64,000 nt of DNA from Tubiluchus corallicola (taxonomy: Eukaryota > Priapulida > Priapulimorpha > Priapulimorphida > Tubiluchidae). Below, piece after piece: positions 65 to 57,135 of this stretch. The position numbers were made by a program, and so were the translations under genes. Numbering within the stretch: the stretch's first letter is position 1; each line of letters starts with the position of its first letter. The stretch spans positions 137,862 to 201,861 of the forward strand of contig JAQGDQ010000422.1 of assembly GCA_030141605.1 (NCBI GenBank), given 5' to 3'. The notes beneath the pieces are model-generated. The model searched no databases. It saw nothing but the letters and a program-made list of their open reading frames with translations, and was not told the DNA's origin.

Positions 65-154
65 CTTTGAGTTCACTGATTATTTGGACAACATGAATGA
101 CAAGAAGCCATTGATGTCCTTGTACATGTTCAAGGACCTTTTTGAACTGGCAAA
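65..154 (+). CDS. PDE exon: start of catalytic domain
   Basis: The acceptor follows ttgcaatatag and the donor is AA|gtaagt. It encodes [16 protein letters not shown] and then [14 protein letters not shown], the helical lead-in before the KNYR motif. The first base completes a codon begun in an exon outside the window; the last codon AA|A is completed at 1835. The window therefore opens inside an intron. Confidence 0.8.
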
Positions 155-3100
155 GTAAGTATACTGATGAAGCCATAATGTATGTCCATGCATTTTGTGG
201 CATGACTAGTTACTTTACAGAGTTTCAGCACCCTACAAGCCGGAATCAAGCAATAAACGATGGGGCCTCCTCGACGTTAATGATTGTGGAAGGACTGGAA
301 TCTATCTCGTTATTAAAGATAATTCTCTAAGATAATATATTCCACCGGCATAAGTATCTTAGCTGTTAATACATTCTCTCTGTACAGGGAAAGCAGCCAG
401 AATCAAGCATGATAATATAAACCACCCAGAGCGAGTATCGAACCCAAGGGGTCAATCACCCATTCACTAGCCAGTCTCTGCACTATTCTTAACTTCGGTG
501 ATCAAGCACGTTTTGTGGTGACTAGTATGTAGTACAGTGCTGTAGGTTCTGCGTTGCTGTGATACTAATATTATTAGATATAGTTCTCAGGAAGTTGTTA
601 TGCAATGTTTGTAATAATTAAACGCAACTGGTGCAATTCGAGACTTGGATTGGTGGTTGTGTGCTTGAAGCTGAAACAATGTTGTTCTAATTTTCTGTTC
701 TGACAAAGTTACACATGTCACTGTTACAGATACGTTTTTTTAAATAATTGTGATCTAACCAATTGCTAATTTACTGCTAATAAGGGCATGTTGTCATTGC
801 GTTTCAGTAGTACAAGGGGAACAGACACACGGTTTGTAGCTATAATAACTGTTTTTGATTCGCTTAGAGTGTCTGCTACCAATATTATAGAGATGATTAT
901 TTTCCTTATTTAATTGACAAATTTTTAGTTTGTTTCTCGTCTTCTGAATTTGTTGTTTGCGATTTTTAAATTTATTTCTGGTGTTTTTGATGAGTAGGGA
1001 ATCGTTTTAGTGATTGGGCTTTAGTTAAAGAATGACATAAAAACGAACATTAGCCCGTACTTAATACTTTTTTACTAATTCGTTCTTCATTGTAAATTTA
1101 ATTAAATTATGTTGCGGCTTTGAAAAATAAAAACGATGTCATTGAACTTGAAATTTTATTAAACGGTCAAGTCTTAAAGCTTATTGACTCTACAGCGTTG
1201 TTAACAACTAATCAATTACTGCACGGCTAAAGTTTGTATTTCATTGGTACAGATTTTCGTCCGTGGTGTTCAGTCTTGTTAATTGCAGCATTAATTTCAC
1301 ATTTTAGAGAAGCGCTGTTTTTACCACACATACCTCACGCACAAAGGCATACCTTTTATTTACAAATGCGCATTTTCGTCTACCACTAGATACTTACCAT
1401 TGTTGCACTAGAGACTTATTACATTTTATTGAGAATAGACTGAGATTTTTTTCTGTTGATATTTTAGTATGTAGATAAGCAACCGTGATAGTCTCCCGTT
1501 TATTTTTGCACTTTTTAAATTATGGAGCAAAATTTATTGTAGGTGGATAATATTATTAAATTTAATTACGTCTAAATTGATCATACTTTCTGTGGTGTAA
1601 CTATCAAAATTAATAAAAATTGCACGGCAGTTCAGCTAACAGTTTTTCAGTTTCAGAGGCGCTATTTACACCTCTTATGGAGGTATATTAGACCTAAGTT
1701 AGAATCTTAAATTTTACCTTGTTGACTGTGGCAAATGATTTACAAATATTTTGTTGAGTAGACCAAGCGAAGTCTATGATCAGTTCCGTCATAATTGTTA
1801 AACGTAAGCTGACCTTACATTCTAATTTCTACAGATTTGATGTCAGCCATCTAATTCGATTCACTCTGACTGTGCGCAAGAACTACAGACGAGTACCGTA
1901 TCACAACTGGACTCACGGTTTTTCTGTTTCTCAGTCAATGTATGCCGTTATCAAATCAGATCCAATGCGTTGGTCCTTACTTGAGGTACAGTGTATGTTT
2001 GCACAGGAAGCTGTTTATAGGTCTGTGTCTCTGATTCTTAAGTTGTCTCCTGTTTTGGCCAATATATGATTTGTTACATCCATGACAGTGGGGCTTGTAA
2101 TATACACAAAATTTTTTGTAATCTGGTTTAACAATTTTGGACAAAACTAGCAATAAATTTGCCTTACTTATTAAGAAGGTGTTTTTTAGAAAGTAGTTTG
2201 CAGTTGCACAGCAAACACTAATCTCCCAGCCGTCTAAATGTACTACAGTATGTATACATTGATTTTGTGTCTTATTTGAAAATTTGATGTTCATTTGGTA
2301 GGGCTAAGCATTCTCCACCAGAAAGCGAATTCGAATCGAAACGAATTTGTGACTTTCGATTTCGAATCCAATCGAATTTCAGTATTTCGTATATGTGTAT
2401 TCAGATTATTCATGTATTCAGATTATGTATATTTTTAGATTTGCTTCTGCAGTAAATCACTGACAATTTATTCAAAATTTTGCACAGAAATCACACCTAA
2501 ATTGTGCTAAGTGCATTTAGTTTCAAACGTTTTAATGATAAGGAATATATGTGGTTGAAGTGCTGAATTATTCGATTTTATAATTCTAGGTTCGAATCGA
2601 ATTCGAATTAAAAAACTCGTTCAAATTCGATTCGAACGTTTCAAACTCTAACGTTCGTTTCTCACCCCTATTGGCTACATCTGAGAATTCTTTTTTTAGT
2701 CTTTATCAATGTTTGTGGCTGCTCTTTGCCATGACTTGGATCATCGAGGAAAAAACAACGCTTACATGATCAAAAGCGCCTCACCGTTAGCAGCCATTTA
2801 TTCCACGTCCACCATGGAGCACCACCACTTCAACCAGACTGTGTCCATATTGCAGCAAGATGGCCACAACATACTCCGCTTTCTATCTTCAGAAGAGTAC
2901 AAAGTGGTAGGTTGCTTTTCATTTTCACAATAATTTGCGAGTTGATTAGCATTCTGCGCGATTTAAGAAGCAGTTATTGTGCTTAACTGAAGCACTTTGT
3001 CAAGAATCAGCTCCCAGCACCCCTAGTGGAAGTTTGATGAATTAACTAATGATATAATAGCATACATAAAGTCTACAATTGAGCTAAAGTTATTCGCTTC

Positions 3101-6100
3101 AAAGCTTATGGTACTATAAGTTCTCAAATCCTACCATTGACAACTTTACTCTGAAGCTTATTGGGTTTACCAACCAAGCAGTCCCTAGAGTGAAACAGTA
3201 GGCCATGAGACGTGAATTATTATTAATAGAATAAATCTTCCTATTGCATTTCTTAGTAATTATAGGGTTGTGTAAGGTAACATGCAGCCTATGTAGGGCC
3301 TGTCTGAGTGAAAGTTGCTGAAATAAAGACTGAATGCTTCTAGCTAATCAGTAGTAAAGTAAGAGTGAAGATACTTATATAGTTCAGTGTAAAACTAAGA
3401 AATTATGAACTTAAAAACATTCTATTCTGGCGCTTCGATCCGTTTTTAGCACCAATTTTTGACTGACTAATTTATTTATTTCTTGTTGTTTGTTGAAGGC
3501 TTCTTAATTTAGGTAAGATATGTAATCAGTCGAACGTTTCGATTCAAATGTGTTTTGCTCAGCTTTGTAACATAAACAACTTCAAATAGTTGCATCGTCA
3601 GCTGAATTTCGTTAAGATAATTAATTATCAGAGAACTTAATATCGGCTATGCGTAGCGGATGTCACATTCTCTGTTACTATGAATCAAGATTAACCCTAA
3701 ACTGAACATGACCTTAATTATTGAAAGTAGATAAAGAAATAAATTAGGTAATTACATGAAATAAATATTTACAGTTGAAACACCACAACTTTATTAAAAC
3801 TTTTAATTTTTATAGTTAACAATCGTGCCAAATGTTTCGGTAAGGCTGCTGCTGTCATCATCAGTGGTAAATTTTTAAATGTTTACAAACATACAACCAG
3901 TTTGTGTAGGCACAGCCTTCAATGTAGAACATTATGTACTAATTATGTATTTAATAGAAGCCAAATAGGTAATGAATAAGCAGACCAGTAGAAAGAAATT
4001 GAAATAGTAAATTATGCACTAATTATATATTTACAAAAGCCAAAAGCCAAATAGGTAATGATTAAGCAGACCTGTAGAAAAGAAATTGATACAGTAACAA
4101 ATAGCTAAGTGTTTGTAAATAAAGTTAAAGGAATTGAAATACTTTGAACATTAAAAGAAGGCTTATTATGGTACATAGATAAACTTTCTTTTATTAATAA
4201 GTCCCAGTACATAGATAAACTTTCTTTTATTAATAAGTCCCAATTATTTTTAATAATGTAAATTAAAAGTTTTAATAAAGTTGTGGTGTTTAACTATAAA
4301 TCTTTTTAAGTGGCTGTAATAATAAAATAAACAAATCAAATCCACGATCAGCCACGATTTCGTTTTTGCTATAGACAGAATCAACAATAATACTTTTCTT
4401 GTTAAGGTTTTAGCCAATATCAAGCACTGTATTTTGGCTACGGATCTTGCATTGTTCTTTCCAAATAAGGCAAAGCTGAAAGGCCTTGTCGATTCGAATG
4501 AGTTCAGCTGGGAGAAAAAAGAGCACAGGTAAAAGACGTCTACCTTGTTAAAATTAAAAATAATTAGGTTTTTTGCCATAACTATCATCTCTTCTCATCG
4601 ATCTCCTTTAGTTGGACATTAAAATGGTCGAATTTTTATGAACTGGTTTCTGCATTCGTATTCGCCACAATCGCGTGTCACATTACAGTCGAAAAAAAGG
4701 TTTTTGACATCGCGCGACTCTGACTCAACTAGAATTGGATGTGTGCCACCTGTGATGCGTCTTATATACTTGAAACATATACAAAAATCAGATAAAAGAT
4801 GATTGCATGCTATTGTGTCTTGTCGTGTGACACAGCACATCATATTGTATTGCATTATAGCGCATTGCACCGTTTCGTATTGTAATGAACCATGCAGCAG
4901 GCATTGCACTGCACTGCAATCTGGTGCATTACATTTCGGATGCAATGCATTGCACTTCATTGTATTGTGCGGAATTGCCTCACCATGTTCCAAGTAGCAT
5001 TACACTTTACAGTATATATTGTACGGAAACTGTTGACCTTAAGTACACAAATTAGTACACATGCATCGTAAACACCAGTACTTATGCACCCTATTAATCC
5101 AAGGCAAAAGCCTCACTTGCCACAGCCACCCTCAAAGTGTTCGGTGTTACCCAGCCGCGGTTTCGAACCCGTGATTTTCCAACAAAAGGAAGACGTACTA
5201 GTGCTATTAGTTTATTTATTCACTTCCTTTGTGGAAAATCTCATACTTCCTTATGCGTTTACTAAAACTGGTCTCATTTGACAAGGAAAATGAGTAAATA
5301 AAATTGGAATCACTTTTGTACTTTTTAGAGAACTTCTGCAAGCTATCATAATGACAGGATGTGACTTGTCAGCAAGCATCAAACCCTGGGATATTCAAGT
5401 GAAAACCGTTAAGGTGATATTCGAGGAGTTTTACGAACAGGTAAATGAAAGGTGCCACAAAATACATATTTTATACACTGGGTAATTCTCCAATTATTTA
5501 AAAAGCAAAAGGGGGTAGTTTGAAAGGGGTAATTTTTTAAAAACTCATATTGTATAATAGTTTGGTAAACAAATCTGAAGTCAAAATTTATATTGCTATC
5601 TTATTAACCCTGCCTATCTTATTATCCCTATTTTAATGTGATTTTGGTACCTATGATAGCTGAATAGATGAAAACCTTTTATTTGACTCACTAATGAATG
5701 CCGTTATTCTCATATTATTTAGTTACAATGAGAATATACATACATATATATGTATATATATGTATATATATATATATAACGGCATATATGTATGTATTTT
5801 CTTCGATGCGCATTCAAATCAAATTTCTAAATTTCTAATGCAATCACTACGTGCAATAAATTCATTTCAGTGTACTTTAATTCCTAATCTTTTTTCAAAA
5901 ATTCTTTTATACGATCATAACATTTTTTCGTCTTCTAATTTTGAATGTGAGCTGTATTGTTTACTTTGTGATGTTTTGATGTAATGAAATCTGCAATTCG
6001 ATCAACTGATGATAAAATCAATATCAAAATTTTAGGGTGATGAAGAAAAGGCACAAGGTCGGACGCCCATTCCCATGATGGATCGTGACCGGGCTCACGA

Positions 6101-9100
6101 ACTTCCCGGATGTCAGGTAAATTGAAAGTCACTTTCCTTTTTCTTGCAGCTGAAATAAAAATTTTAGTCGAATTAATTTATTATCTGTTATATAAACCTT
6201 GGTGCAATTACTGTACATACCATGATTTGAATACTTGTGCGTCACTATCATGCTATAGTGGATCATATGGATGCGATTGCGTACAATTTTATTCAATTCC
6301 TTTCTTGTCTTTTCTTTCATGATAGTAAATTCCTGCGCGCACAGAAAGAAGGTGGATTTTATTCGCACAACAGTTGCATATTTGTTGATACTACAGTTAT
6401 GCAACTAATGTCGAGCGTGTGTCATTTATTTTAGGTGTGGTAGTTAGAATTTTAAAGCCGCTTGCATGCAGAGAGGTGCGAAAATCTCAATCATGTTTAT
6501 AGCGTTTTTTGAAAGCCTCACCATCTTGCCACTAGAGGTCAGGTGAATACAATAGGTTACATTACAATAGGCGCATAATTGTTGAATTCAAAAACAATGG
6601 AAAACGTTGATATGCCATGTAAAACAAAGATGACTGGTTTTTGAGTTGGAACTTGGATTATGTACACTTCTGGTATCATGACCATAGAAAATTTTAAATA
6701 AATACGTTAACTTATAAACTTTTTCCATGACATTTTCACTTTTTATTCTCTGATGATAATAACAACTTAATTTGTGAAGATTAGCGCTTCACGGTTAAAC
6801 TTTTGGAGGGGTGTGTGTGTGGGGGTGGGGCAGATGGCAATTTTTAACTTTATATTAAACAGTTATTAATAACACCTAAATTTTAAAAATTAGTCCCACT
6901 TTCCAGCACTTTGCAGAACAGCTGTGTGGCTGTGGGCACGTTAACAATTTTACTTTTTCGGCAATAACTCTTTCAGCACGCACTTTTTGTGCTAGTGAGC
7001 GTACAACCAAAATAACATTATTCTAATGCTATAGCAACCGTTTTTATGAAACTTTTATGGAATTTATGGCTTAATGCCCGTATTAGAGTGACTGTTAAGT
7101 GTCCTACGTACAGCTTGTATATTCAATAAATTTAATTTTGCCCTTTGTCAATTTATAGGCGTATGTAAAAATTTATTAGTATAGCGCATTACATCACTTA
7201 ATATCTCAGCACGCAGAACAATAAAATACATATAAAATTTATAGTTAAAACACCACAACTTTATTAAAACTTTTAATTTACATTTTAGTTAATTAACATA
7301 TATTAAAATCAAATGTTAACTAATTAACTAAGTAAATTATAACTTTTAAAAAAGTTGTAGTATTTTAACTATAAATGTTTTTAAGTGCATGTAAAAACAT
7401 TTAAAATTCATAAGATACATTAAAAATATCAAAAAATTAATTCATCGCAAAAGTGCAATCTAAACAGGTGCGTTTTAAGATGTTTAAAAGAATCTAATGA
7501 GTTTCAAGAGTATTGCAACAGGTAAATTATATCAGAGATGCGGAGCACAGACAGAAAAAGTTTTTCACCATAGCATACCGCATTTGGAATTGGATGATAT
7601 AAATGCATTTGTTTGTTGGGCTTAGAACGAAGTGTTCGGCCTGTGTTACGGCCTATCAAAATATCCGTGAGATATGCAGATGCTAAACCATGTAGTATTT
7701 TGTATCGTAATATCACTGTTCGAAAATATGCATATTTCATTTAGGTTGGGTTTTTAACTGGCATATGTATGCCCTGTTATGACCTGATGCAGATTCTCAT
7801 ACCAGGCTCCCACCCCATGTATGATGGGGCTATGTAAGTACAAGAAGCTGACAAGCTGCCCTTTTTCATAATCGATGTCGTGTTGATGTGCACAGATATT
7901 AACAATAAAAATTTATTGCAGCCAAGGTGTCTGGAACAACGTGGCATCTAATTTGAACGATTTTATAGGTGGCAGTAACGTGAATAGTCGAGTTTTCTTA
8001 TTTCATTCTTCTTCTACAACCAAGTTGATGTCGTGTTTATTTGTTTGTGACACTCTAGGTAGGCTTCTTAACAGGTATATGCATACCTTGTTATGACGTC
8101 ATCACCAGTGTTATGCCAGAGTGTAGGCCCATGTTTACGGGAGCAAGGTATAATTTGCTATTAATAGAATTCTACAGAGTGACGTTAACGCTGTTTCTGG
8201 TAATGTGAACAAATGTATATATTGCACATGATAACGGATATGGCTTTTACAGGTTGTAAAATAATAGGCAAGGTACTCTCTGGAAACAGTGGCATTCTCT
8301 GAAACTGGGTAGCTTTATCACAAACGGAAACTAGTTTTGGTTGGTGACATAGAACCAAAAATGAGTGGGAAACAGCTTTAATGTCACTCAATTTTCGTCT
8401 TTGTTAGTCTATATGTTATCATAAGTTCCTTCTCTTCCTTTATTTGCATCTTTTTACCGTTTCTCTTCGTGAAATGCATGTTTACTGTCTTAAATTACGT
8501 AATTTCACTTAAAATTTGTAAAAAAAATTATAGATGATATACGATAAGCGTTCTTCCTGGTGGTTGCCTGCTAATTCGTACTGTTGGCTTCGTAAAACGG
8601 TGTCCTATGCATCAATGTCAAAATTTTGTTGAAAAACTACTTTGTTTTTGAATTGTTACGGCTAACGTTGAATGCATTGATTTGATATGTATATTATCGT
8701 TAAACCTGTGTTGACATTACGATTTCGTTATTTGGCTTGACACCTTTTCGTTCATTTTTAAAAAAAGTTTAAAGTTAACCTATGTTGTCTTTAAGCATGT
8801 GAAGAAATTGAATTCTGCGTTATGTCTACAAAGCTGTGCAATAAATATTTTATAGAAACTGCTGATATTTTATTCTTATGCAATATGTAAATGTTCTAAA
8901 ATAGCTTGACGACCCATGTCTTTGTAGTTTGCATACAAACTGATTCTCCATGTCTAAATTTTGTGTGTAGAAAGCTCTAATTATACGTCAGCATGCAGTA
9001 ATTAACTGAAATTCAGCTAAATAGAACGTACGTGTAAAAAGTAAAAATTATATCTATTTTAGCAAGTGTGTTTGATCATACATTATGATCACGAATGAAG

Positions 9101-10836
9101 GAATATTATGGACTTATAATCCATAGTTCTAAGCAATTAATGAAAATCTAATGCTGAATAGTTAAAACAGATTGGCCTTGAACTAAAATTAATGACGAGT
9201 GGCGATCTTTGAAATTTTGCAAATTTAATTATAGTTTGATAATAAACGAAAATATTTACATTTTATTATTTTCGTATAGCCTATGCTTTGCGAGCCATCC
9301 TTGCAGACAAAGTCGTAGAAGCCCCTTGTTCATGCTTTGCAAATGGCATTCACTAAATCGCTTTACTCTTCAATTCGATTACCTCTTATAAGTATATCAA
9401 TATTTTCCCCCTTCCCGATCATTTACTATTTACGTGAAAGGGATAGCCTCTAGGGATCAGCATGCTGGTTACTAAATACAGACATAGTGTCATCATCAGT
9501 GCTAGAAATTAAGCCAAAAGAAATGATCAGTGCCTTTATGACGTTGCAATTACCACGGCACAAAAATCATTGCAAAATTAAAAGAGTGAAATTGAAGTTG
9601 CCAGTATATAAGTAGAAATACCCATAGAAAGAGATTCACAAATACGTAAAAATTGGTACAACACGCTTTTCTGGTCAGAGTATCCATTGGTAGGTATTGT
9701 AAAATGCAAGAATCCCTTTAGAATTCAAGAATTTGTACTCTGCAATCAATTTCTAAGGGTATATTTAATTGCATTTTGGTAACTTTAATGTGATTTTTCC
9801 TTATTTTGTAATGATTTTTGTGCCTTGTTAATCGTAGTGTCATGAAAAAATACTGATATATTCTTTTGTCTTGATTTCTAGCGCTGATAATGTAGTTTTT
9901 GTCGAAACGATTATCTGCACTCAATGTACAGCAGGTTTATTCCTGTATTGTTTATTTTCCCTACGTAAAGCAGAACAAGCTTCATTTTAACGCTTTTTGT
10001 TTCTTGCTCAGCGCCAACTTGGTTCATTGGAAAGCACTTGCAGAAGAGCAGAAACCGAAAGAAGAGGAAAAGAAACAAGTGAAGGAATCAGAAGAAAAGA
10101 AAGAAGCGAAAGGTGCTTTACGCATTTAAAAATTATAGAAGTGTTAACTAGTGTTTGTCAAGTATGAATTTTTACACCTATGACTACAGCCATTTACAGA
10201 ATAGAAGCTGAAAATTTTACAGCTGATTACATTTCTGTTGTTTGTAATTTTGTTATACTTTTTAGATATCTTCTGTAGTTGTATAGCCCGAGTAACAATA
10301 AAATTGAACTCTTTGCTCTGGTACATGAGAGACGATGACGACGGTTTTTGAATTGTGGAACTGGGTTTTAAATTTTCGGGTTTGCCAGACCTTTTCAAAC
10401 CTAACCAGAATGTTGTTTCAGCTGCTTTTAGTTATCATTTTTATTCATTGTGCCTATATTTACAAATAAAACCTGGCCATTCACAGATTAAAGCTAAAAT
10501 GTGTACAGCTGTTTACAGGTTTGTTATCTGTAGCTTTGTTGCAATTTTTACACCTGTTCTCTAAATATAACCAAAATAACAATAAAATTGAACTTCTTGC
10601 AGGGGCGACGGCGTTTTTTGCGTTAAGGAACGCTGTGGGTTTACATTATCGAATTCGCCATACTTTTTCTAGGCTTGCTAGAACTTTGTTTCTGTCGCTA
10701 CAAGCTCCGACTGTGATGGTGAATGAATTCAGTTCGCCATGTTTTTCAACATTGATGAATGTTCCTTATTCTTTATTCAGGTCATGCAAAGGAAGCAAAG
10801 AAGAAAGAATCGATAGGAAAAGAAAAGGGCAAATAA
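65..10836 (+). CDS. cyclic nucleotide phosphodiesterase, PDE5/6/11 clade (3' part, 9-exon path)
   Basis: Hydrolyses cAMP and/or cGMP; this is the C-terminal catalytic domain of a class I PDE. Exons read 65-154, 1835-1985, 2700-2906, 4407-4528, 5329-5440, 6036-6116, then 7745-7833 or 8059-8147, then 10012-10112 and 10781-10836. All introns are GT-AG and frame is kept, giving 335 residues. Visible signatures are [13 protein letters not shown] (general-acid His codon 1902-1904, metal His 1914-1916), CHDLDHRG (metal His-Asp 2730-2735), [13 protein letters not shown] (metal Asp 5363-5365) and ELPGCQ followed by VGF, the invariant Gln and hydrophobic-clamp Phe of the PDE5/6 type. The end is a Lys/Glu-rich tail with no lipid-anchor motif. 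Family members usually carry N-terminal GAF domains; here they would lie left of the window. The clade is clear from motifs, but the exact orthologue (PDE5, 6 or 11) and nucleotide preference cannot be decided. Confidence 0.93.
155..1834 (+). other. PDE intron, mostly unique AT-rich sequence
   Basis: Apart from a tRNA-like SINE relic near 408-500, nothing recognisable was seen. Confidence 0.6.
408..500 (-). repeat. tRNA-derived SINE relic
   Basis: On the minus strand, GGGTTCGATACTCGC (a pol III B-box) follows a block resembling the copies at 42135-42285 and 42365-42515 (CATTCACTAGCC, TTAACTTCGGT in + sense). Degraded. Confidence 0.5.
1835..1985 (+). CDS. PDE exon: [11 protein letters not shown] motif
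   Basis: Acceptor tttctacag, donor GAG|gtacag. It encodes [19 protein letters not shown] and [19 protein letters not shown], holding the catalytic general-acid His and the first metal-binding His. It ends in phase 0 with SLLE. Confidence 0.92.
2022..2115 (-). pseudogene. GIY-YIG endonuclease fragment of a Penelope-like element
   Basis: The minus-strand frame reads [19 protein letters not shown] and [11 protein letters not shown]. The pattern VYxIxCxxCxxxYIGQTxRxLKxRxxxH is the GIY-YIG domain of Penelope-like retroelements. No reverse transcriptase is seen beside it, so it is a broken remnant. It lies 37 bases after a PDE exon. Confidence 0.6.
2300..2675. mobile_element. TTCGAA-rich MITE-like element, copy 1
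   Basis: About 375 bp with ends AGGGCTAAGCATTCTC and (reverse complement of the right end) AGGGGTGAGAAACG. Clusters of TTCGAATCGAA lie inside each end. A second copy in the opposite orientation lies near 32070-32450. The ends resemble hAT-type termini but no exact target duplication is left. Confidence 0.6.
2700..2906 (+). CDS. PDE exon: HDLDHRG metal site
   Basis: Acceptor tttttttag, donor GTG|gtaggt, 69 codons in phase 0. It encodes [19 protein letters not shown], then [20 protein letters not shown] and [15 protein letters not shown]. This is the PDE signature HDxxHxG and the METHHF-like helix (here MEHHHF) of the catalytic core. Confidence 0.95.
3768..4310 (-). mobile_element. Penelope-like/inverted-repeat element tail, copy 1
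   Basis: Left and right ends are reverse complements: CACCACAACTTTATTAAAAC near 3782 and GTTTTAATAAAGTTGTGGTG near 4270. An internal minus-strand block, ACTGATGATGACAGCAG followed by GAAACATTTGG, is shared with 13972-14345. It holds a 36-bp tandem duplication (4171-4242). Confidence 0.6.
4407..4528 (+). CDS. PDE exon: ATDLALFF helix
   Basis: No usable ATG opens this exon; it was found by the need to join 2906 to 5329. Acceptor cttgttaag, donor AG|gtaaaa, 122 nt. It encodes [18 protein letters not shown] and [20 protein letters not shown], and the last codon AG|A (Arg) is completed at 5329. A second AG at 4412-4413 would break the frame with the previous exon, so 4407 was chosen. Confidence 0.9.
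4795..4995. repeat. CATTGCA-rich low-complexity block
   Basis: Irregular repetition of ATTGCA/TTGTATTG words (about ten near-copies) leaves frames open on both strands. No gene match. Confidence 0.5.
5329..5440 (+). CDS. PDE exon: [13 protein letters not shown] metal Asp
   Basis: Acceptor actttttag, donor CAG|gtaaat. It encodes [20 protein letters not shown] and [17 protein letters not shown]. The Asp in CDL is the fourth metal ligand of class I PDEs. Confidence 0.93.
5735..5785. repeat. AT/GTATAT microsatellite
   Basis: TATATATGTATATATA-type simple repeat inside a PDE intron. Confidence 0.8.
6036..6116 (+). CDS. PDE exon: ends at the invariant glutamine
   Basis: Acceptor aaaattttag, donor CAG|gtaaat, 27 codons. 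It encodes [19 protein letters not shown] and AHELPGCQ. The final CAG codon (6114-6116) is the purine-binding invariant Gln by alignment with the PDE5 motif QVGF, so the next exon begins exactly at the clamp region. Confidence 0.92.
7225..7388. mobile_element. short palindromic copy of the Penelope-like/inverted-repeat family
   Basis: Arms ATTTATAGTTAAAACACCAC and its near reverse complement ending TTTTAACTATAAAT fold on each other with only an AT-rich centre. The arm sequence matches the ends of the elements at 3768-4310 and 13972-14345. Confidence 0.6.
7504..7740 (-). pseudogene. non-LTR retrotransposon (LINE) ORF2 C-terminal fragment
   Basis: The minus strand reads [18 protein letters not shown], then [12 protein letters not shown] and a YGEK block, the usual [16 protein letters not shown]...LRS...YGERAF end of reverse-transcriptase ORFs. 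It stops before the LWNSLP motif. Its 5' side reaches the splice acceptor of PDE exon A. Confidence 0.7.
7745..7833 (+). CDS. PDE alternative exon A (mutually exclusive with B)
   Basis: Acceptor tatttcatttag, donor AT|gtaagt, 89 nt. It encodes [15 protein letters not shown] and [14 protein letters not shown] plus two bases that join C at 10012 (ATC, Ile). It aligns with the PDE5/6 segment after the invariant Gln, including the clamp Phe of VGF. It is 17/29 identical to exon B in protein, and nine of those 17 codons differ silently. Confidence 0.88.
8059..8147 (+). CDS. PDE alternative exon B (mutually exclusive with A)
   Basis: Acceptor tgacactctag, donor AG|gtataa, 89 nt, 225 bases after exon A. 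It encodes [15 protein letters not shown] and [14 protein letters not shown] plus two bases that join C at 10012 (AGC, Ser). Clamp Phe and the CxPCYD core are kept; the loop differs from exon A (PECRP against PGSHP). Same length and phase as A, so either fits the frame alone. Confidence 0.88.
8148..10011 (+). other. PDE intron, no recognised content
   Basis: AT-rich. The only echo of a known repeat is GTGTCATCATCAGTG near 9487, like the Penelope-type tail words. No coding signal found. Confidence 0.5.
10012..10112 (+). CDS. PDE exon: last catalytic helix and charged tail
   Basis: Acceptor tttcttgctcag, donor AAAG|gtgctt. It encodes [14 protein letters not shown], matching the final NRxxWxxLAEEQ-type helix of PDE5/6, and then a Lys/Glu-rich run ([19 protein letters not shown]). 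Confidence 0.88.
10186..10612 (+). repeat. diverged direct duplication inside the last PDE intron
   Basis: 10186-10345 and 10477-10612 share ordered words (GCCATTCACAGA.., TTTACAGCTG, AACAATAAAATTGAACT, GACGACGG/GACGGCG). The second copy carries an acceptor-like CTTCTTGCAG at 10602, which was not used in the model. Confidence 0.45.
10781..10836 (+). CDS. PDE terminal exon, stop TAA at 10834-10836
   Basis: Acceptor ttctttattcag. In frame with 10112 it gives [18 protein letters not shown] and a stop. Its Lys-rich composition continues the previous exon, which supports the join although no homologous sequence anchors it. Confidence 0.75.
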
Positions 10837-13499: not shown

Positions 13500-13625
<126 letters not shown>

Positions 13626-14345: not shown

Positions 14346-14802
14346 CATATTATTATTATTTATAAAAATTTCTTGTAATTGATGACATTTCGAGAACATT
14401 TCTTCTCCTCTAACCGTCGTTAGCAGCAATAAAAAGTGTAAATAACATTGTAGGATTCTTTGAAAAATCACTTGATTTATGCTCACGTCATTGTACATTA
14501 TGGTGACCAATTTTATCAAAATCAAGCGAGAGATGGCAGCACAACAGCTGGGAAACGCAACACGTGTGAACTTCGGCAAGAATCGTTTGCATTTTGTTAT
14601 TTGTTCGCTGTGCAATTGACGCGTAAAGTAAACTGACTTTAGATCTTGCTGTTGTTGATGGGCTAGCTCTCGATTATTAGCTTGTTTAATCAGCAGTTTT
14701 ATGAGATGTTTTTAGTGTCTTGAATAATATACTTCTATGTATCGCAAAGCGTCGAATCATAGCTAGGATAAATTCCAGGTGCTGCCTTCGCTTGAAATAA
14801 TT

Positions 14803-15120
14803 ATGGACCAAAAAGAAAATGTTAAAGGTGCAGGCGATTCTGCGGCGATGTCAGCTGAGAGAAAGCCGTCTCAGGACTGCGTTAAAAGTATCGTATTAAC
14901 TGGTACTGGTGGATATGACAGATTAAAAGTTAGAACGGGTCCGAAACCCAAGTTAAATGAATGTGAAGTATTAGTGCGAGTGAAAGCATGTGGACTAAAT
15001 TTTGCAGAACTTGGTGTTAGACAAGGATTATATGACCGCCCAATTAAACCTCCATGCGTGCTTGGACTGGAATGTTCAGGTATTGTTGAAGAAGTTGGGG
15101 CAGGTGTAACAAAAGCGAAG
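14803..15120 (+). CDS. VAT1: VAT1 exon 1
   Basis: 106 codons, donor AAG|gtaaaa. The first ~25 residues (MDQKENVKGAGDSAAM...) are polar and unlike vertebrate VAT1, which is usual for this variable N-terminus. The MDR catalytic fold starts at CVKSIVLTGTGGYD. Confidence 0.93.
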
Positions 15121-18100
15121 GTAAAACTAATGTACCTTAGTTGCTAAGCTTAGTCTTATAAATATTAATAATCCATTAAAAGTGATGAAAGTTGTCAGTA
15201 GCACCAAACAGGATGTTATAGTATTAAAACAAAAACCAAATGTGGACACATTGCCATATAATATGAATATGAGTAATAGTATAATATTTCATAAACAAAT
15301 GTTACTAAAACTAAAAGCATTTTTGTCTTCGCTATATTTTTAATCTATTTTAAATTTATTTTAATGTACTATTTTCAATATTATCAAATATTTCTATCAC
15401 ATTATCTATCTATCTAGAAGAAATTGCATGATAACAAGGTAACAATAAGTAAATAATTTATTTGTCATTAAATGTTACAAAATAAACATAAACAAAAGCA
15501 AAAAACTAAAATAAAGATGGAAAAGAGACCGGGTGGCGAAAAGACCAAGGGTCACCAGGTCAACCACCCCATCCAAATCGAAGAAAATTAAGTGACCTGT
15601 CAAGTAAGGTATTTACAAATGAAAATAATCAGCAACTTAACAAAAAAGATGAGGCAACAAGTTCAAATGGGTTTAAATTTAGAAACAATAAATAAATTTG
15701 GCAATGAGAAGAGGCAAAATTTAAATTGGTAAACAAAACAGAAAATTTAAATTAAAACCAAGAGACTAATTCCAACACAACAAAAACAAAACTAAAAATT
15801 ACATATAAATCAAAAAACTCAATCCAACATAAGCAAAAAAAATGAAGCAATGTCAAGGTATTATATTTATGACAAAGCCTTTTTTGGGGAATCTACCGAC
15901 ATCGGTGAATTAAAGAGATTTGTTTGAATAAAAAATTAGTAGAACTTTTTAAATACAAACCCTTTCTTTTAAGCACATTAAAAATTTTCTGACCTGATTT
16001 TGACTCTTATATGCTAGCGAATTTGACTGCAATAAAATGGCTGGTTGTAGTATACAATATTTGGAAATGTGTCCGCAGTACTGAATATACAGAATACAGA
16101 ATAATTTATTTGCCTCAACATAATCAACATAGCATTAACAAATGATGTGACTACTAAGAGAGACAGGGTGGCAAAAAGACCGAAAGGTCATTGAGTCTAC
16201 CACCCTTCTACTAATTTAATAACAAAACTCTACTTAGATTAGTACTGTGAGCTACGTAAATTAAACTATAATGTAATTGTAAATTAGATTATTATATTTT
16301 ATCTAAAACATTATTCTTGTATAGCTGCAGTTGTTAGTTAGTAGCGCAAGCATATGTTATACTTGCGTAGCTACAACTACTAGTGATAACAAACCGATTG
16401 TACCTTGTACAGTAACTTAAACATAAATGCTTTTTGATACATAACATTAAACATTGAAACAGAAATATATTATGTTATCTTCCTGTTTTTTTAGCTGCTT
16501 AGTAGTAGTCTGCTTACATTCTGTTTTTTTTTTGTAAAATGATGTGCGAGTATCGTGTTTTACTTTCCGGTATTACGTTAAAGACAAACTGAAAAAAACT
16601 TCAATTAATGCACTTGTGTGATCGCATTTGCAGTTGTACATTAATTTTCTACCTTGGTAGATACTGAATGGTGCTGTAACATTCATGATAGTGACATTCT
16701 GATTTAGTCAAATTTAGTCTTTATGGAACAGACAATTTGCTCAGCTTTTACTGTGACCGACTACTTATATATTTGATTAACCACATTTCTTTCATTCATA
16801 CGTGGTATTATCACTGCAGGCATATACCATATATATATATATATATATACACTGTTAATACGCAAATGTGTCCGGTGCAAAAAATTAAAAACCAAGAGTG
16901 CAGTAGGAGTGCATAAAACACAAGTAATAAAGTCAAAAATAATATAAGCTACAGCAAAATACACCTATCTAAAAAAACTTAAGCACACTTTTACGAATAC
17001 AATCTCATATAAAATAATACATGTCACAGTGGTAATATAAACATGCATCTTGACATAAACACAAGTTACACAAAACCATCTCACGGTACATTATACATAT
17101 ATACATATAATTTTATTAATACCAAAGGTGTTGTTATTTAATTAACTCAGCTTTTCACTTTGCAGAAGTGCAAACACTCAGCACCAGTTTTCATACGCCA
17201 GCATATCCTGCAATTAAAATTTCTTTGTTTACCAAGTAAATTTATTACGCCCAGGCATATTTACAGAGAATGTTGGATATTTACAATATTTACTACGTGT
17301 ACACAAAATTTTAAATTTGATAGAAGTACGCGGTTTCTTACAAGCAAGATAGATTACATACCTGGTGACGTTGTTTGCTTGCTACGTGAAGCATTACTGT
17401 GATTACGAGTGCTGTATTATTTTCGTTTAAATAATGTTTGTTTGCTGGTGTTTCCATTTTTTATTCCCACTTTGTATTAATTGTAATTTGTAATTCAGAT
17501 GTGTTTAAGGCTTCTTTTTTCTAAATATCTTGATGTATGTATGCATATTGTTTATTATGTTGCTTGCCTTTTGTTGTTGCCAAAATTGCGTTCTTTTGCT
17601 TAGATTTTTGCATTTAACTTTATTCTATTATTTTTTGTTTTTAGTTTTTTTGACAGTTTGTACTATTTTTTCTTCTTATTTGATTTTGTTGTCACCATTT
17701 ATTTTTGTTATACCTGTCTGATGAAAGGGCGGGGGACTAGATGACTCTCCTTTATTCCCTCCCTTCCCTGCTCCACGATTACAATTATTTAATATTTGAC
17801 TAAAACTTTTGCTGTAAAATTATATTGGAGAAAATAAATGTTCAATGTCTATGTGATTTGTCAGGCCTGTGAATGTTATGGTTTAGTCACAAGGTGTTTG
17901 GTTACATTTTTGGGACTCCTTATAGGTGATCTATAAACGGCATCATTTGGTTGGTATAAAATGCGCTTGTGGCAGAAATTTCCAAGCGGGCTTATTTCTT
18001 TTACTGAGGGATAACCTGAGCCGGTTAATCCGCCTTTAGCCCTGTCACACACCCACGGAATTCAGATATCAGTCAAACTTAGTCCTGTACGACAATTAAA

Positions 18101-36100: not shown

Positions 36101-39100
36101 TTGTCAATAGCGATGGCAACAGTTATTAGTCATTTTTGGCACCTATATATATATCTAATACTTTATGAACGAACGTTCAGTTGTGACGTCTCTCCTTGAG
36201 GTAGTGAGCACCGTTATAGCCGGAACGGATGCTGAGTATGTGAGCATTGAGTGTGTGGGCACCAAGACACGTCAGTTTGCTCATTCGTTCACGTGGTATT
36301 TTAGTTTTTAATCTTGTGTGACAAAAACGCCTGCGCATTTTTTCATCATGACTTTTCAATTCATTAAACCCGGAGATGATTTCCGCTGAGTTTCATTAAA
36401 TCGTTGCATTTTTTACAAAGCTCATATTGAATTGCAAATCTATGTCTACTAAGCAGTTTAATCTACAATCAAAGAGAGAATTAAATTGAGCTGAGTACCT
36501 GTCGGCACTCTTGATTACGCACATGTTCTGCTCTGCTATAGGCTTCAGCACATCACTGCAAGAACACTCAGCAATCATATTTTGGGGCCAGCATAACTAA
36601 TCTCTTTATTAGCTGGCTTTTACTGTTATTATGCAGAGTATCTGCCAGCCTATTAGTTTCAATCACTAACGGGATAAAGCAGGGTGATAAGACAACAGGC
36701 AATAGCCTATGGAAAATGACAACGACCGGTAACTGATAACGTTGAATAAAAATTGTAAGTTTAAAGTCCCGCAATGACCGCTAGGCGGAGCCATTTTAAC
36801 GGTAAATCGATTGAAACAAGTTTATGTACTCTTAACATTAGGTAAAGTGTATTTAGGTAATCATATCATTCGTAGCACCTACTTCACTAACTAAGCAGAA
36901 GATTAAATTCCTTTGTATTGTCAGTAAAATTAATGATGTGTTTTTGGTGAATCAGTGGTGCACACTGGGTGGTGATGCATTACTGTTTTACCAGGATTAT
37001 TGTGAATTATAAAGCATTTTTTCTTCAATTACATAAGTCTTTGAAACAGATAGGCGTAATAATACTAAGTATTTTTGGACATTCTTTAAATTTCCCCTTT
37101 TAAAAATATCTATACCATGTTTAGTATGTAAATTTTTATATATGGTAGGTCAGTACTGATAAAATTAATTTCTCTTGGCCAACTTTTTACTTTCTTGCAA
37201 ACTAGTTAGTTGGATGGATCAGATTTTAATGAGAACTTTATTAATGTCGCTTCTCAGATTTCTGCCTAATCATGTTTTACATCATAGTTTTTTTGTACAT
37301 CTGATACGAATGCTAGTGGCGGACCGTTGCGGTACACAGTTTATTTATTTATTCACTAATATTATTACCACCTACACGTGACCCTATGTACAGAAAAACA
37401 ACTTTAAAAAGGAATCCAGTATACAGTTACAGTTACAGACAAAAGAGGAAAATGCGAATGAAATTTATGATAAAACGGTACATGCCGTTTCCCAGTGTTA
37501 TGGGGATTGTCTTGATTGTCTACCTCAATACAATTGTCTATGATGTAGTCCCTTCCTCTTTCTGTTTCCCTTAGAAGCTGCGTGGCAATAAATGTGACGG
37601 AGAAGACACGTATTTATGAGTTACCGCATCTTCCTGCGGCTGCAGAGTTATAATTTATCTGCAAGCGTGATGGTGATTCATTGTCACTGAGTTACCGTCA
37701 ATATTACTTGCTTATGCTAAAACATGGTACAGTATTGTGGGTCATGGGATTCTTTACAAAAACAATGTATGAGAATTACTGAAAATATGCGGAACGAAAA
37801 ACGACAGGGACGCTTGATGAATAGCAACAGGAATTGCTGTCGTTATTGCGGAACCTTTTGTAACACTATACGTGTCACGAACGGCACGATAGAGGTATGA
37901 GTACTAGGTCTACTGGGAGTGCAATAGTAGATCAAATGATTAACCTTATGGTGTTTTAAGCTGATGGGTGAGTCAGTGCTAATACACAGTGGCACTTCAG
38001 GTGATCAAGAGTGATTTATGAGATAATAATGAAAAGTCTGTGCATTGACTGTACGTGTATTCTTTGTCTTTTCAATCAAGCGCCAATTAATAAACAACTT
38101 ATGTTTGGGATTGTTGTACATTGGGATTGTTTTGGGACTGCTGTACGTTGGGATTGTTTTGGGACAGCTGCTGTACATTGGGATTGTTTTGGGACTGCTG
38201 TACGTTGGGATTGTTTTGGGACAGCTGCTGTACATTGGGATTGTTTTGGGACTGCTGTACGTTGGGATTGTTTTGGGACAGCTGCTGTACATTGGGATTG
38301 TTTTGGGACTGCTGTACGTTGGGATTGTTTTGGGACAGCTGCTGTACATTGGGATTGTTTTGGGACTGCTGTACGTTGGGATTGTTTTGGGACAGCTGCT
38401 GTACATTGGGATTGTTTTGGGACTGCTGTACATTGGGGTTGTTTTGGGACTGCTGTACATTGGGATTGTTTTGGGACTGCTGTACATTGGGGTTGTTTTG
38501 GGATTCCTGTACATTGAGATTGTTTCTGCAATTCTATTAATTGCACAGGTGTCTCATTTTCGAATTAAGTATCAGTCACTGAACATCTTATAAGTTCGTA
38601 TGGGCTTGTGGGCTGATCTGCATTGAGAACAATTGTTTCTGTTATCGTATCTGTTTTATGGGTTTTTTATGTTTCAATTAAGTATCAGTAAGCCTTTTCA
38701 CAGTTCCAGCGATTGATCATGATCGTTAAAAGGTCAAAGACTAAGTGTACCAGACAACACATTTGTGTACAGTTGACAACGCCTCGCAACCCATGCTGTT
38801 GTAATAGTAACATGTTTTACAGCTAGCTAGAACACATTGCCTAGTTCTCTTTTTCTTGTTCCTAAGCAAGATTCTGCTAGTAAATCATTCTACACACAGA
38901 CTAATGCATTATTAAGTAAAGTCCACGTAGAGCAACTGAAGGTACTGAACTAATGCTTTGCGTTACACGACACGTCAACTGAACGCTTAACCTTTGATCT
39001 ACAGCAACTGCGCGTGCGCACAACGAAACTGTGAAAAGGCTTATTAGTTGAATAACTCGACATTTTAATTAACTCTATTGGCTGATGTAGCATTGAATTA

Positions 39101-42100: not shown

Positions 42101-45100
42101 CCCATGTATGGAGCAGGCACTGAGAGTCAGTTTCATAAATGAAACTTGCTAGAGGGAGTATTGACCCTGCTGGTAACGAGCCATTCACTGACGAACCCAG
42201 GGTGCTTTAACTTCGGTTTGTAAACAACGTGCACGTGACCACTTATCCACTCGGCTATTTATCCCTTCTAGAAAAGGCACTCGTTTCTTTGTTTGTTTGT
42301 TTGTCTGTCCTGTTGTCTGTCTGTTTGTTAATCTTCCTGTACAAGGCAGACAAGCAGAATCTGTATAGCAAATGAAACGAACCAAAGAGAGTATTGAACC
42401 CAGGCGGTAACAACCCATTCAGTGACGCTCCTAGGATGGCTTAACTTCGACTTGCAAAGTACATGCCTGTGACCACGTAACCATTCGGCTATTCATCCCA
42501 TCTAGAATAGGCATCCTTTTACTAGCTATGTATCGCTTATGACTTGTTCGTTTTGTATTTAGCTATACCGAGTAACTCTTCAACTATTTTGAATGTTCTT
42601 TGTTCAACGCTCTTGAGTTTTTAGTAATTTTGCACAGTAATTATTTTAAACCAAGCGAATGGCTTCTATTTAATTAAGACTCTTGCAGCTAGTGTTAGCT
42701 GTAATTAAACGCTGGCTGCACGAATATCGTCTCCTGTGACTTAATTTTCTCAGCGGCTGTAGCTAAGCACCAGCTCCCGTTTCAGTTTTTGTGTTTAAAG
42801 CTCGGTGTTTGTTCAGTTTTGTACTACAACATCAATAACCACCATGAGCGACGGTAAAGAATGAACCTAATCATTACGTGAACGAAATTGCTTGTAATAT
42901 TGGCAACTTCTGTGGGTGTAACACAACTTGTTTAAACACAGCCAGCCAAGGAACTCATAAAGACCTGCCGTAATTCTAATTAGTTTCACATTTTGAGTTG
43001 CTTTGTTTCTTACCTAGGATCGAGTTCACGTTTCTGTTCTTTTCTTGAAAATTTATTGCAGTAAAATTAGCAGCATTACTGTTAGACCAGACACGTTCTC
43101 GTTCTCCAGAAATAAGAGGTATAAGTTTCGCAAAAAATGGAGGTTTTTCGCCCTCCTCCCGCTCCTCCCGGTGGGTCCGATTCGAAAAATAAATTGTCAG
43201 TGAGACGACACTAGATCGAAACCTTTCGTTTGATACACAGATCGCCGAAAATGGTGCCGTCGTTGGAGCTGTAGCCTCGAATATTATATATATATTCTTC
43301 GGTTTGTTTACCGATATACATGATATACATATAATGATATAATATAATATATTATATACATAAGTATAGTATATATAATATGTATGTGTGTGTGTGTATA
43401 TATATAGTATGTATGTATATATAGTATATGCCACCGAATCAGCAACGTTAATGTTAGACAAGATTCAAACACAAGAAAGCACTTTCCATGAATAAAGTTT
43501 AAAAAATTCGTGTTGAATTTTTATGTCACTTGCTACCTTGTTGCACACAGAGACTGCGTTTTTGGTAAGTGTGCGTAAAACTTGAAAATGTAAACTCCTA
43601 GCAATGATCGTTAGGCGCAACCATTTTAGACGGTAAGTCTAATGAAACAAGTTTAAATAGCCTTGTGTAAAATTTGAAACAACTTTACTAACTAAGCAAA
43701 AGTTTAAATTACTTTCTATTGCCAGTAAGATCAATAACGCGTTTTTTGTTAAGCCAGCATTGCGTATTGGGATTGTGATATATAGTGACGTTTTACCAGT
43801 TGGTGCGAACATGTTAAATTATTAAGAATTTTTTTCTAGTTACATTTAGTCTTTGAAGCATGTAAGCGAAATGCCAAGTAATGTAACTTTTTATGGATAA
43901 TTCTTTGGGATATACTTTGAAACCACTTCTTCCCTTTTAAGCATTGAAACTGTAATTAGCTAATACTTTAGCGTAGCATTTTAAAGGGAAGTTTCAAGAT
44001 GCCAGTGTAGAATTGGAGGAACACTTACCAAACTGCAATATAAGGGAAAAAACATAAATTATTGAAAAGTGCCACTCTCTGTTGGTACATTGTTTTTGTA
44101 GTTCTTTATTGTAGAATATCGCAAAAAAGTTTTAGGGAGTGAGCGAGCGTTGTATTTGTTGTTGTTGTACTCGTTTGCTAAGTAACTTTGTAAAGAGGCC
44201 TATTTCGCCGTGATGCTCTTCTCCGTCTCATTTTCCATGCAATACGTTTTGAAACAGCTTCTTATTGTGACGTCACAATGGAATTCCATGTTTTAAATTT
44301 TTGTGAAAAACGTATTCCGTAGTCAAGGCAAATGGAATTCTAAGTGAACACACCAAGGCAGTTGGACGGAATGAACACAATGAGCAATTAACCTATTACT
44401 TCGCATTCCGGACTAGCATGTATGTTTCTCAGTCAAATATGGTTAACTTCTCTTGAAAAATGTCTGGTAGCTACTGTCATGGAGATGCATGTTTGATGAT
44501 CCTTGTAGTTATTTAGAACTACTGTTCTGGTTTGCTCGAAGCAGTGAAACAAGACTAGACGGTACAGTGTAATAGGTAACGCGCCTGCGTCTGAGAGATA
44601 ACTGTGAGTTCGATACCACGGTCGGCTCATACTAAAGACTCTAAAAACGGTGCTTACTGTTGCCTGTCTGGCGTGTTGTATTTCGAGTAAAAGAGCAATA
44701 ATAATCTCTGTTATATCAGTGTAGTTTGTTGTTTACCGTCAGCGGTAAAAACTTCTTGGCTCGTGTTGTATGGTGAGTTTAAAGCCGTCGGGAGCTATTG
44801 ATCCATTTTCACTAGATCAGGTGTTTACTGTGATACAGTTTTTCCCCAGGACTTCTTATTTGTGAAACTCTTTACCAGAAAGTTGCTTTCTTATGAACTA
44901 CAACCTTGCTTATTCCAAGAAGACAGTAAACACCTCCTGTAGCGATAGATTTAGATACAAAAACATATTCTTTCATGTTGGCTTTCAATTTGCGTCTAGC
45001 ACCCTTCAGGTTTACTGTTGCCTGTCTGGCGTGTTGTATTTCGAGTAAAAGAGCAATAATAATCTCTGTTATATCAGTGTAGTTTGTTGTTTACCGTCAG

Positions 45101-48100
45101 CGGTAAAAACTTCTTGGCTCGTGTTGTATGGTGAGTTTAAAGCCGTCGGGAGCTATTGATCCATTTTCACTAGATCAGGTGTTTACTGTGATACAGTTTT
45201 TCCCCAGGACTTCTTATTTGTGAAACTCTTTACCAGAAAGTTGCTTTCTTATGAACTACAACCTTGCTTATTCCAAGAAGACAGTAAACACCTCCTGTAG
45301 CGATAGATTTAGATACAAAAACATATTCTTTCATGTTGGCTTTCAATTTGCGTCTAGCACCCTTCAGGTTTAGTGTCAAGCTTTAATGGAATTGCCTCTT
45401 CTGTAGATGTACATTTAAAGGAAACAGGAAGGATCCTGTGTCCTCTGCCTGCATTCAGGAAGCTGAATTCGTAATTGCGTGCAAATGCAAGTAAAGCTGA
45501 TGAAAGGCGCTGGGAGATCGTACAATTTTCATCAACAGAATGCTTGTATTATTAATATTGCAGAACTTCGTTGCGGAATTCAAATTGCTAATCCTCAACG
45601 ACCTCGCGATGCCAAGGTGTGGTATCTTTGTTTGTTTTGTATTGCAAAATGCAGATCCATGAGCTTGCACGATTTTAAAAATAATTGATTTTTTTGTATT
45701 TATATTCATATTCATTCATATTTATTAGTGCCAAACTCATACAGTACAAAAAACAAGACACATCCAATTTCAACTTGAAATATAATGACACTACAGGCAA
45801 ACAAAAATTGATTTTTTTATATTTATATTCATATTCATATTCATTTATATTTATTAGTGCCAAACTCATACAGTACAAAAAACAAGACATACATCCAATT
45901 TCAATTTGAAATATAATGACACTACAGGCAAACAAAAATTGATTTTTTTATATTTATATTCATATTCATATTCAGTCATATTTATTAGTGCCAAACTCAT
46001 ACAGTACAAAAACACAAGAGATACATCCAATTTCAATTTTGAAATATTGTGACACCACAGACAAATTTTGCTGACACAAATATTATAAAATCGCTCCTGT
46101 TAGTCATTTTAGTTATTTAAACGAATCTTTTTATAACAGCACTAAGTTTTTTGTAAACAGTGCAAGGCTTATATTGCTCGGTACAAATGTATTTTGCCAG
46201 TAATAAAAATGTAGGCGATACTGAGTAATTACTTCGTAATGAATGATTAAAAAACGATGCTTGAATAAGACTCTGTAGATAACAACGTGTTTTTACAGAG
46301 CTGAACTTCTTCAACACAAAGTAAAATACTTTTATCCTTGTGAAAAGCGATAACTGCTTGAGAAAATTTTGTATAAGAATAAAAATAGCTTAAGCATCCC
46401 GTTTTTTTTGCATACACTGTTTTAAGTCCGTTGTTAATTTTTCTGTAGTAATACAATTACTAACCCTACAGGCAGTGAAAACTGGTGATCGTGCCCTATT
46501 TATTACGCGCTGTATGAAATCTACCTGTTACTGTGACTTTATAAAGGTAAGAATCTGCGATCAAAGAACAAAGTGCGTAGATTCTGTTCAAGCAATTAAT
46601 GCCTTAAGGAAATATGTGTGTACTAGACAGTCGTAAATTAGCTTCCTTTGTTACACACACGATACGTATTGATCATTCATTAACTGTAATTTCTAGTACC
46701 AAGAATCTTGGGGATAATGGCATTTAGTAGTCCAACCTAACAAACGGCGATAATTTCCAGAGTTGGGAAGTTTAAAAAGATATTGATGTTTGATAGTCCA
46801 AAGCCGCGTTCACAATAGCCAGGAAAAAATATATATCATCTTTATTCGCACATGAATGAAAAAGACCAGAAAAATTATTTACAATAAAAATATGTACGGA
46901 TAATGGAAAAATAAAAAAAACGTCTAGAGAGGACTTATAAAATCACATACTAATTAACACATATTTCTTTAATTATTTTTTATTTATTTATTAAATATAT
47001 CCACAACGATCATTACAGCATTGCACATAAAATAATGCCATCGATATCCATGTGACCTATGCACATCACAGTGTAGGATATTTTCAAGCAAACAACTCAT
47101 TTATCTTAAGAGACTGTCTTTACTTTTAACATCGACAGGAATGTTATTATACTATTTATTTTAAATATCAGTACGTAGAGGCGTCAAATTGTGCGTCAAA
47201 AATATTACTTCTGAGCATAATGTTTCTGCCCATTTTGAACTTTTCAGATCCAGATTTGATATCAACGGTCACATAGCCAGAAGTACTACAAAGGGTACTG
47301 AACTTCAATTATTGACTCACATATGTAATGTCAAAAGGATCTGAATTTGTTTTGTATAAAAGCAAAACACACACCCATCTCTACTACAGCAGCGTCTACA
47401 GCACAGCCCTAGTCAAAAATTCCCATTGCATGAAATATTCGGACAGTTTTTAAATGAATGAGAGGTCCAATAAGTCCTACATATCTATATGCAGTGTAAA
47501 TGGGGGTACAAGTGGACACAAAACATTAAAGTGTTACATATTTACATGTAGCGTAAACGGGTGTACAAATGGACAAAATCATTAAAGTCTTACGTATCTA
47601 CATGTAGTGTAAACGTGTACATGCGGGTGCAAGTGGATAAAATCGTTAAAGTGGCGAAATTGATTAGGAAGACCAGTTCGCGTCGCGTCCACTTCTAGCA
47701 AATGGAGCAGAGTTTTGGTCGGCTGCTTTCGATGCAGGGCATATTTCAACAGCTAGCAAGCTGCGTCGGTGAAATTGAAAACTCGGCAATGATTGATACT
47801 TTACACTCGGCTAAGTTGAGCTCATTCCTCTCTACTTGAAGTTAACGTCAGCCTTTATATGTCATAGTCCTTGCAGCCAGTCATTTGCACCGCGTGCGTT
47901 GAGACATGGAGTTACCGCTGTTGTTACCGTTGACGTAGTTTGAATGAATGAAAACATGTTTTCAGGTGGTTCAGTAATACTAATTGCAGGTTGCATATTG
48001 CATACAACAGTGGTATCAGAAAACTGTTTCGTTTAAAGTATGATTAGTGTGCGTCTGGTATGTATGTAAACCCATCACTACCCCATTTTAGTCAAATTCG

Positions 48101-56208: not shown

Positions 56209-57135
<927 letters not shown>

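Follow-up and report, generated by a model that had tools for sequence, protein, structure and literature searches.

Can a single gene be built to make alternative cyclic nucleotide phosphodiesterases (PDEs), and if so, which property of the enzyme would the alternatives change? The question is raised by a 64,000-nt stretch of a contig from the priapulid Tubiluchus corallicola (JAQGDQ010000422.1, positions 137,862 to 201,861; hereafter the window), in which a PDE gene carries two adjacent, similar exons, here called A and B. An earlier note on this DNA had proposed that A and B are mutually exclusive exons that exchange the pocket segment of a PDE5-type enzyme. We consider below the identity of the gene, the location of A and B in the enzyme, the constraint on their sequence, and a second exon pair that lies upstream of the window.

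The phosphodiesterase gene and its family

A class I phosphodiesterase gene occupies the first 10.2 kb of the window as nine coding exons on the + strand (Table 1). The internal exon borders from W1 to L are all AG/GT, and the spliced model contains HNWTH, HDLDHRG, CDLSA and ELPGCQ, which we take to be the metal-site histidine and aspartate motifs and the invariant glutamine of class I PDEs. With either exon the product scores above the cut-off for the PDEase_I domain (PF00233), at 5.6e-77 with A and 1e-77 with B. Of 60 kb taken from upstream of the window, the half closer to it (30 kb) was examined for open frames. The GAF-B exons located there match PF01590 when joined (1.6e-16 and 1.5e-15), and traces of a GAF-A domain also lie upstream, as exon matches to a human probe sequence (E values of 0.002, 3.7 and 5e-7). 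A genome-wide GAF search run exon by exon did not list the PDE10-like gene.

Table 1. Exons and intron of the PDE gene. Positions in the upstream stretch (L011) become window positions when 10000 is subtracted.
Feature	Position in L011	Position in window	Strand	Length and phase	Remarks
Exon G1	2421-2566	-7579..-7434	+	146 nt, phase 0 in, 2 out	GAF-B
Exon G2	3087-3232	-6913..-6768	+	146 nt, phase 0 in, 2 out	GAF-B
Exons G3-G6	6532-6624, 7523-7591, 8956-9070, 9207-9346		+		GAF-B side, joined to W1
Exon W1		65..154	+	first base completes a codon	start of catalytic region; AG/GT sites, frame open through the chain
Exon W2		1835..1985	+		part of the open chain; aligned with PDE10A
Exon W3		2700..2906	+		metal-site region (CHDLDHRG); best PF00233 match in the genome search
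Exon W4		4407..4528	+		part of the open spliced chain
Exon W5		5329..5440	+		part of the open spliced chain
Exon W6		6036..6116	+	phase 0	last codon is the invariant Gln
Alternative exon A		7745..7833	+	89 nt (29 residues + 2 nt)	aligned with PDE10A residues 727-756 in PDB searches
Intron between A and B		7834..8058	+	225 nt	
Alternative exon B		8059..8147	+	89 nt (29 residues + 2 nt)	PDB alignment to PDE10A
Predicted last coding exon L		10012..10129	+		ends KGALRI, stop TAA

The PDE5-type assignment of the earlier note gave way when the product was compared with chains in the PDB. Over the catalytic domain in its A form, PDE10A scores 268.6 bits, a PDE5/6 chimera 256.6 and PDE5A 252.4, a modest margin of 12-16 bits within a comparison that covered the best 60 of 151 chains, PDE11 not among them. 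Over GAF-B, PDE10A (2zmf) again scores higher, with 166.6 bits for the form with G1 and 160.4 for the form with G2, against 149.1 and 148.9 for PDE5 chains when the scores of two GAF stretches are added (107.8 and 109.4 for the better stretch by itself) and 128.2 and 129.7 for PDE2A. PDE5-type identity was rejected on these two sets of scores. The C-terminal piece taken by itself is an exception when it carries A, cone PDE6 then standing one bit above PDE10A (49 vs 48); with B, PDE10A is narrowly first (55 vs 54.5 bits). Among the chains compared, the best assignment by PDB scores is to the PDE10 type, and PDE10 orthology, judged by these scores, is likely rather than proven. On this assignment, the window contains the 3' portion of a class I cyclic nucleotide PDE gene of the PDE10 type, with tandem GAF domains. 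In the PDE5/11-like locus of the same genome (L012) the sequence reads ELPKMQVGFIDAICIP, and an intron is absent after the glutamine (a Gln/Val junction).

Several other features of the window and of the assembly were recorded. Downstream of the PDE gene, at 14767-15147 and 52405-52800, are exons of the zinc-binding alcohol dehydrogenase/quinone reductase type (ADH_N 3.1e-11; an ADH_zinc_N_2 match below cut-off), from a gene that we take to be probably VAT1-like. A 57-nt tandem repeat array at 38104-38525 (7.3 copies, 97% matches) is free of stops in several frames of both strands; two 358-nt tandem copies with 99% matches at 44654-45376 either arose by duplication very recently or reflect a join made in assembly; and long TC and ATT microsatellites lie at 56885-57069 and 13500-13624. 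Hox-type homeoboxes (L027-L033) are scattered among contigs, one of them 97% identical to Antp and one with a Ubd-A-like tail, which suggests a protostome; a search for COX1 gave no hit.

Exons A and B: pocket, constraint and reading frame

The alternative exon begins right after the invariant glutamine and carries the clamp phenylalanine, as the earlier note had described, and it covers PDE10A residues 727-756 in the alignment. It is predicted to encode the helix that follows the glutamine, the loop after it and the first part of the last helix. Such a position favors the idea that exchanging A for B alters the substrate or inhibitor pocket, and hence the choice between cAMP and cGMP or the response to drugs. 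The residues listed in a section of one review as forming the PDE10A pocket are Val678, Thr685, Ala689, Ile692, Tyr693, Met713, Gly725, Gln726, Phe729, Tyr730 and Trp762 (PMC12571622), to which a docking study, in the part that names contacts, adds Val733 and Ala734 (PMC12918786). Four of these positions, 729, 730, 733 and 734, fall within the exon, and they are identical in A and B (F, L, I, C), while Tyr693, Met713, Gly725, Gln726 and Trp762 align to exons common to both forms. The pocket reading is not supported because the reported pocket residues within the exon are the same in A and B, and both forms would be expected to be catalytically competent.

The two exons do differ at PDE10A positions 735, 740-745, 747-749, 752, 753 and 756, so that most of the differences would fall in the helix's outer half and in the loop. 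Position 735 (M or I) lies beside the reported contact 734. A helix rises 1.5 Å per residue; if the segment is helical, the main cluster of differences starts about 10 Å beyond Val733, with 735 alone close by. Second-shell or dynamic effects on the pocket are possible, yet with its reported contacts unchanged we regard a swap that alters the pocket as unlikely. The exchange would most likely bear on stability, on dimer or domain contacts or on partner binding, and not on the catalytic pocket.

Both exons follow W6 in phase 0 and join L in phase 2, and their splice sites are intact: A stands after ...tttag and before gtaagt, and B after ...tctag and before gtataa. They share 57 of 89 nucleotides and 17 of 29 residues, and nine of those 17 codons differ silently. 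Several tests bear out the earlier view that the pair is old and under selection. Changes are concentrated at third codon positions (19/29, vs 13/60 at first and second positions; Fisher p = 1e-4). When the number of differences seen between A and B was placed at random in 100,000 simulated copies of each starting exon, a stop-free copy with protein similarity at least as high as the real one arose 36 times from A and 36 times from B. The Nei-Gojobori method gives dN 0.31 and dS 2.73, the latter a rough value near saturation with a rough lower bound of about 1.05; had one copy drifted freely throughout, a dN of 0.52 would be expected even at a dS of 1.05. In the 30 nt adjoining the exons there is no similarity (8/30 nt identical before them and 7/30 after), so the duplication is old rather than recent.

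One of the two exons could nonetheless be a dead relic of duplication, with the other alone spliced in. Exon duplication relics exist, the evidence here comes from a single genome sequence, and A is less like PDE10A than B is (47.1 vs 54.3 bits with the same flanks). Against this, B matches PDE10A at 9/30 positions and A at 7/30, every one of which is also kept by B, so that A retains seven of B's nine matches; moreover, neither exon contains a stop, both keep matching splice sites and precisely equal length, and dN falls below the free-drift expectation at a dS near saturation. The constraint tests speak for long joint constraint of A and B. A very recent loss of one copy is possible, but we consider it quite unlikely that either exon is a relic.

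With A alone or B alone, reading proceeds from W1 through 322 codons before it meets the stop. Since 89 nt is 2 modulo 3 and the two exons have equal phase, a transcript with both stops early and one with neither is frameshifted. Joined to A, exon B brings a stop right at the junction (AT from A, then G TAG; nucleotides 2-4 of B are TAG in the frame that A leaves), 85 nt before the last exon junction. Under the usual 50-55 nt rule of nonsense-mediated decay (NMD) this is far enough, and transcripts with both copies would be expected to undergo NMD. The form without A and B would not be removed by NMD because its stop sits in the last exon. This frame rule would favor use of one of the two exons, whatever selects the copy. 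It is not universal among validated human exclusive exons, for which the relevant portion of PMC5740500 gives 20 genes (71%) in which joint inclusion breaks the frame; reads joining both exons exist there for 18 clusters with incompatible frames, so the frame rule alone does not prevent joining.

The immediate stop after joint inclusion and the frameshift after skipping would also suit a pair that acts mainly as an on/off switch, lowering the enzyme level when both exons are included or both skipped. A switch, however, does not need long conservation of the protein sequence of both copies, and we hold this explanation to be very unlikely. An assembly artefact, or two alleles set in tandem, is extremely improbable, and a haplotype or assembly duplicate was rejected: the assembly is a draft of 2344 contigs with N gaps, but the 57/89 nt identity and the unrelated flanks are far beyond allelic difference, and the DNA of each exon lies at one place in the assembly.

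Searches of the 343.5-Mb assembly, by DNA and by protein, gave no additional copy of either exon; the protein searches hit A and B, one of them also giving W6 and two weak flank hits in other PDE genes. Among the matches listed for 12 other PDE loci (5.0-9.9 kb, parts of genes) there was no tandem exon pair resembling A/B, and the matches listed within four of them (L013, L018, L020 and L023) are repeats. In L020 a tandem array repeating in 58-nt steps (about 255-600, gene strand) contains copies of the exon part that codes CHDLDHPGYNNT, a metal-site motif; this minisatellite seems to have grown out of an exon end.

A second pair in GAF-B and the probable use of both pairs

About 15 kb upstream of A and B, outside the window and in the same gene, lies a second pair of exons, G1 and G2, which would encode the strands with which the GAF-B sensor domain begins. 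Of their 48 residues 23 are identical, and for 16 of these 23 the codons differ silently; dN is 0.47, with dS at saturation. The random-change null is reached in only 2 and 6 of 100,000 trials, and changes are again in excess at third positions (p = 7e-4). All four combinations of G1 or G2 with A or B give 510 open codons and one common terminal stop. G1 joined to G2 meets a stop after six whole G2 codons, and a message lacking both would reach a stop 20 codons into G3, provided that the exon before the pair ends in phase 0. The contig was also compared with itself over 71 kb, of which 13.4 kb are N, using + strand frames of at least 25 codons; A/B and G1/G2 were the only PDE-coding duplications among 70 of the 114 rows, and the others look like repeats. 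A 28-nt tandem repeat occupies about 1650-2085 of L011 and ends some 330 nt before G1.

The presence of two pairs of exactly equal lengths in one gene is the strongest argument for real use, as it makes chance or decay unlikely. Both pairs are adjacent, homologous, equal in length, matched in phase, bounded by GT-AG and stop-free, the properties by which mutually exclusive exons are recognized in the corresponding part of PMC5740500. Taking together the stop in A+B, the second pair in the same gene and the intact, constrained exons, we infer that mutually exclusive use is the best reading of A and B. It is quite probable, in our estimate, that this PDE10-type gene has two exons that are each tandem-duplicated and alternatively used, one copy per mRNA. 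What stands of the original proposal is a tandem, equal-length, phase-matched, intact and protein-constrained pair; what finds no support is the pocket swap.

How a copy would be selected is less clearly marked in the DNA. Weak donors are a common mark of regulated exons, and by U1 pairing the four alternative donors are weaker than the ten others, by a small margin (26/1001 permutations); the donors of G4, G5 and G6 are about as weak. An intron of 225 nt is long enough that a steric block between A and B is not expected. Competing RNA pairing of the docking/selector kind, between neighboring introns and either the A-B intron or the A flank, is marginal at most: 4, 45 and 3 of 60 shuffles equal or surpass it. 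For the G1-G2 intron, 46/60 shuffles are as good upstream and 0/60 downstream; the downstream stretch holds GTAG-type simple repeats, and we do not rely on its pairing. The RBFOX-like TGCATG is not enriched, and the four GCATG in the intron between B and L are reached in 15/200 shuffles. Exon choice would presumably be under tissue control.

Exchange of the GAF-B segment may bear on the ligand. In the alignments, the position that follows the conserved ADR-x is occupied by Ser in both PDE2A GAF-B and PDE5 GAF-A; PDE10A GAF-B has Ala there, and the two GAF domains of chain 1ykd, which we take to be a cAMP-binding cyclase GAF, have Thr. The PDE2A serine presumably contacts cGMP; a literature search for the GAF contact residues of PDE2A gave nothing relevant. 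In our gene this residue is Ser in G1 and Ala in G2. As stated in a passage of PMC13095499, cGMP binds PDE2 GAF-B and PDE5 GAF-A, and cAMP binds PDE10 GAF-B. The single-residue difference between G1 and G2 could be a hint of a difference in ligand. One could imagine a two-by-two set of enzymes in which the GAF-B pair shifts the allosteric ligand or its affinity and the catalytic pair tunes the response, splicing thereby choosing between cGMP and cAMP, an idea that we put forward as rather unlikely.

Comparison with known systems

Mutually exclusive exons are a known kind of gene structure, and two sets in one gene are known too; in the open-licence literature we found no report of an exclusive exon pair in PDE10 or any other cyclic nucleotide PDE. 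Neither 'PDE' nor 'phosphodiesterase' appears in the main texts of PMC5740500 and PMC9741552, which treat human events. A study of splicing in mouse striatum names Pde10a and counts exclusive events, and does not describe an exon pair in the part concerned (PMC10048575).

Human PDE10A, which gives the top PDB match both in the catalytic domain and in GAF-B, shares the domain order of our gene, with GAF-A traces lying upstream here. Its variants differ primarily at their ends, according to a section of PMC12571622. The C. elegans PDE10 orthologue, pde-5, is a PDE10 family member in a protostome; the passages of PMC12346295 that treat it give one isoform, report only GAFb and mention no exon pair, in contrast to the two pairs here. 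PDE5A and PDE6 belong to the same superfamily and have the invariant glutamine and the clamp phenylalanine, but their scores in these two domains are below those of PDE10A.

Parallels in exon arrangement lie outside the phosphodiesterases. The gene unc-32 encodes a V-ATPase subunit. As is proposed for the gene described here, it has two separate clusters of exclusive exons, and their usage has been demonstrated by reporters and RNA, whereas the PDE10-like pairs are known from sequence alone (compare the account in part of PMC3585155). Invertebrate NALCN, a sodium leak channel, has likewise had exons duplicated in tandem in two events within one gene, with a change of function; its exon choice sets calcium/sodium selectivity, as one part of PMC9741552 relates, whereas the reported pocket residues are constant in A and B.

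The diversity of PDE families is attributed mainly to separate genes and to alternative ends. The gene in T. corallicola could in principle yield four enzyme forms. If both pairs are used, they would offer natural, matched variants for locating where in GAF-B and in the catalytic helix the allosteric signal is carried, and one PDE10 gene would do by splicing, in both its sensor and its catalytic domain, what other animals do with separate genes.
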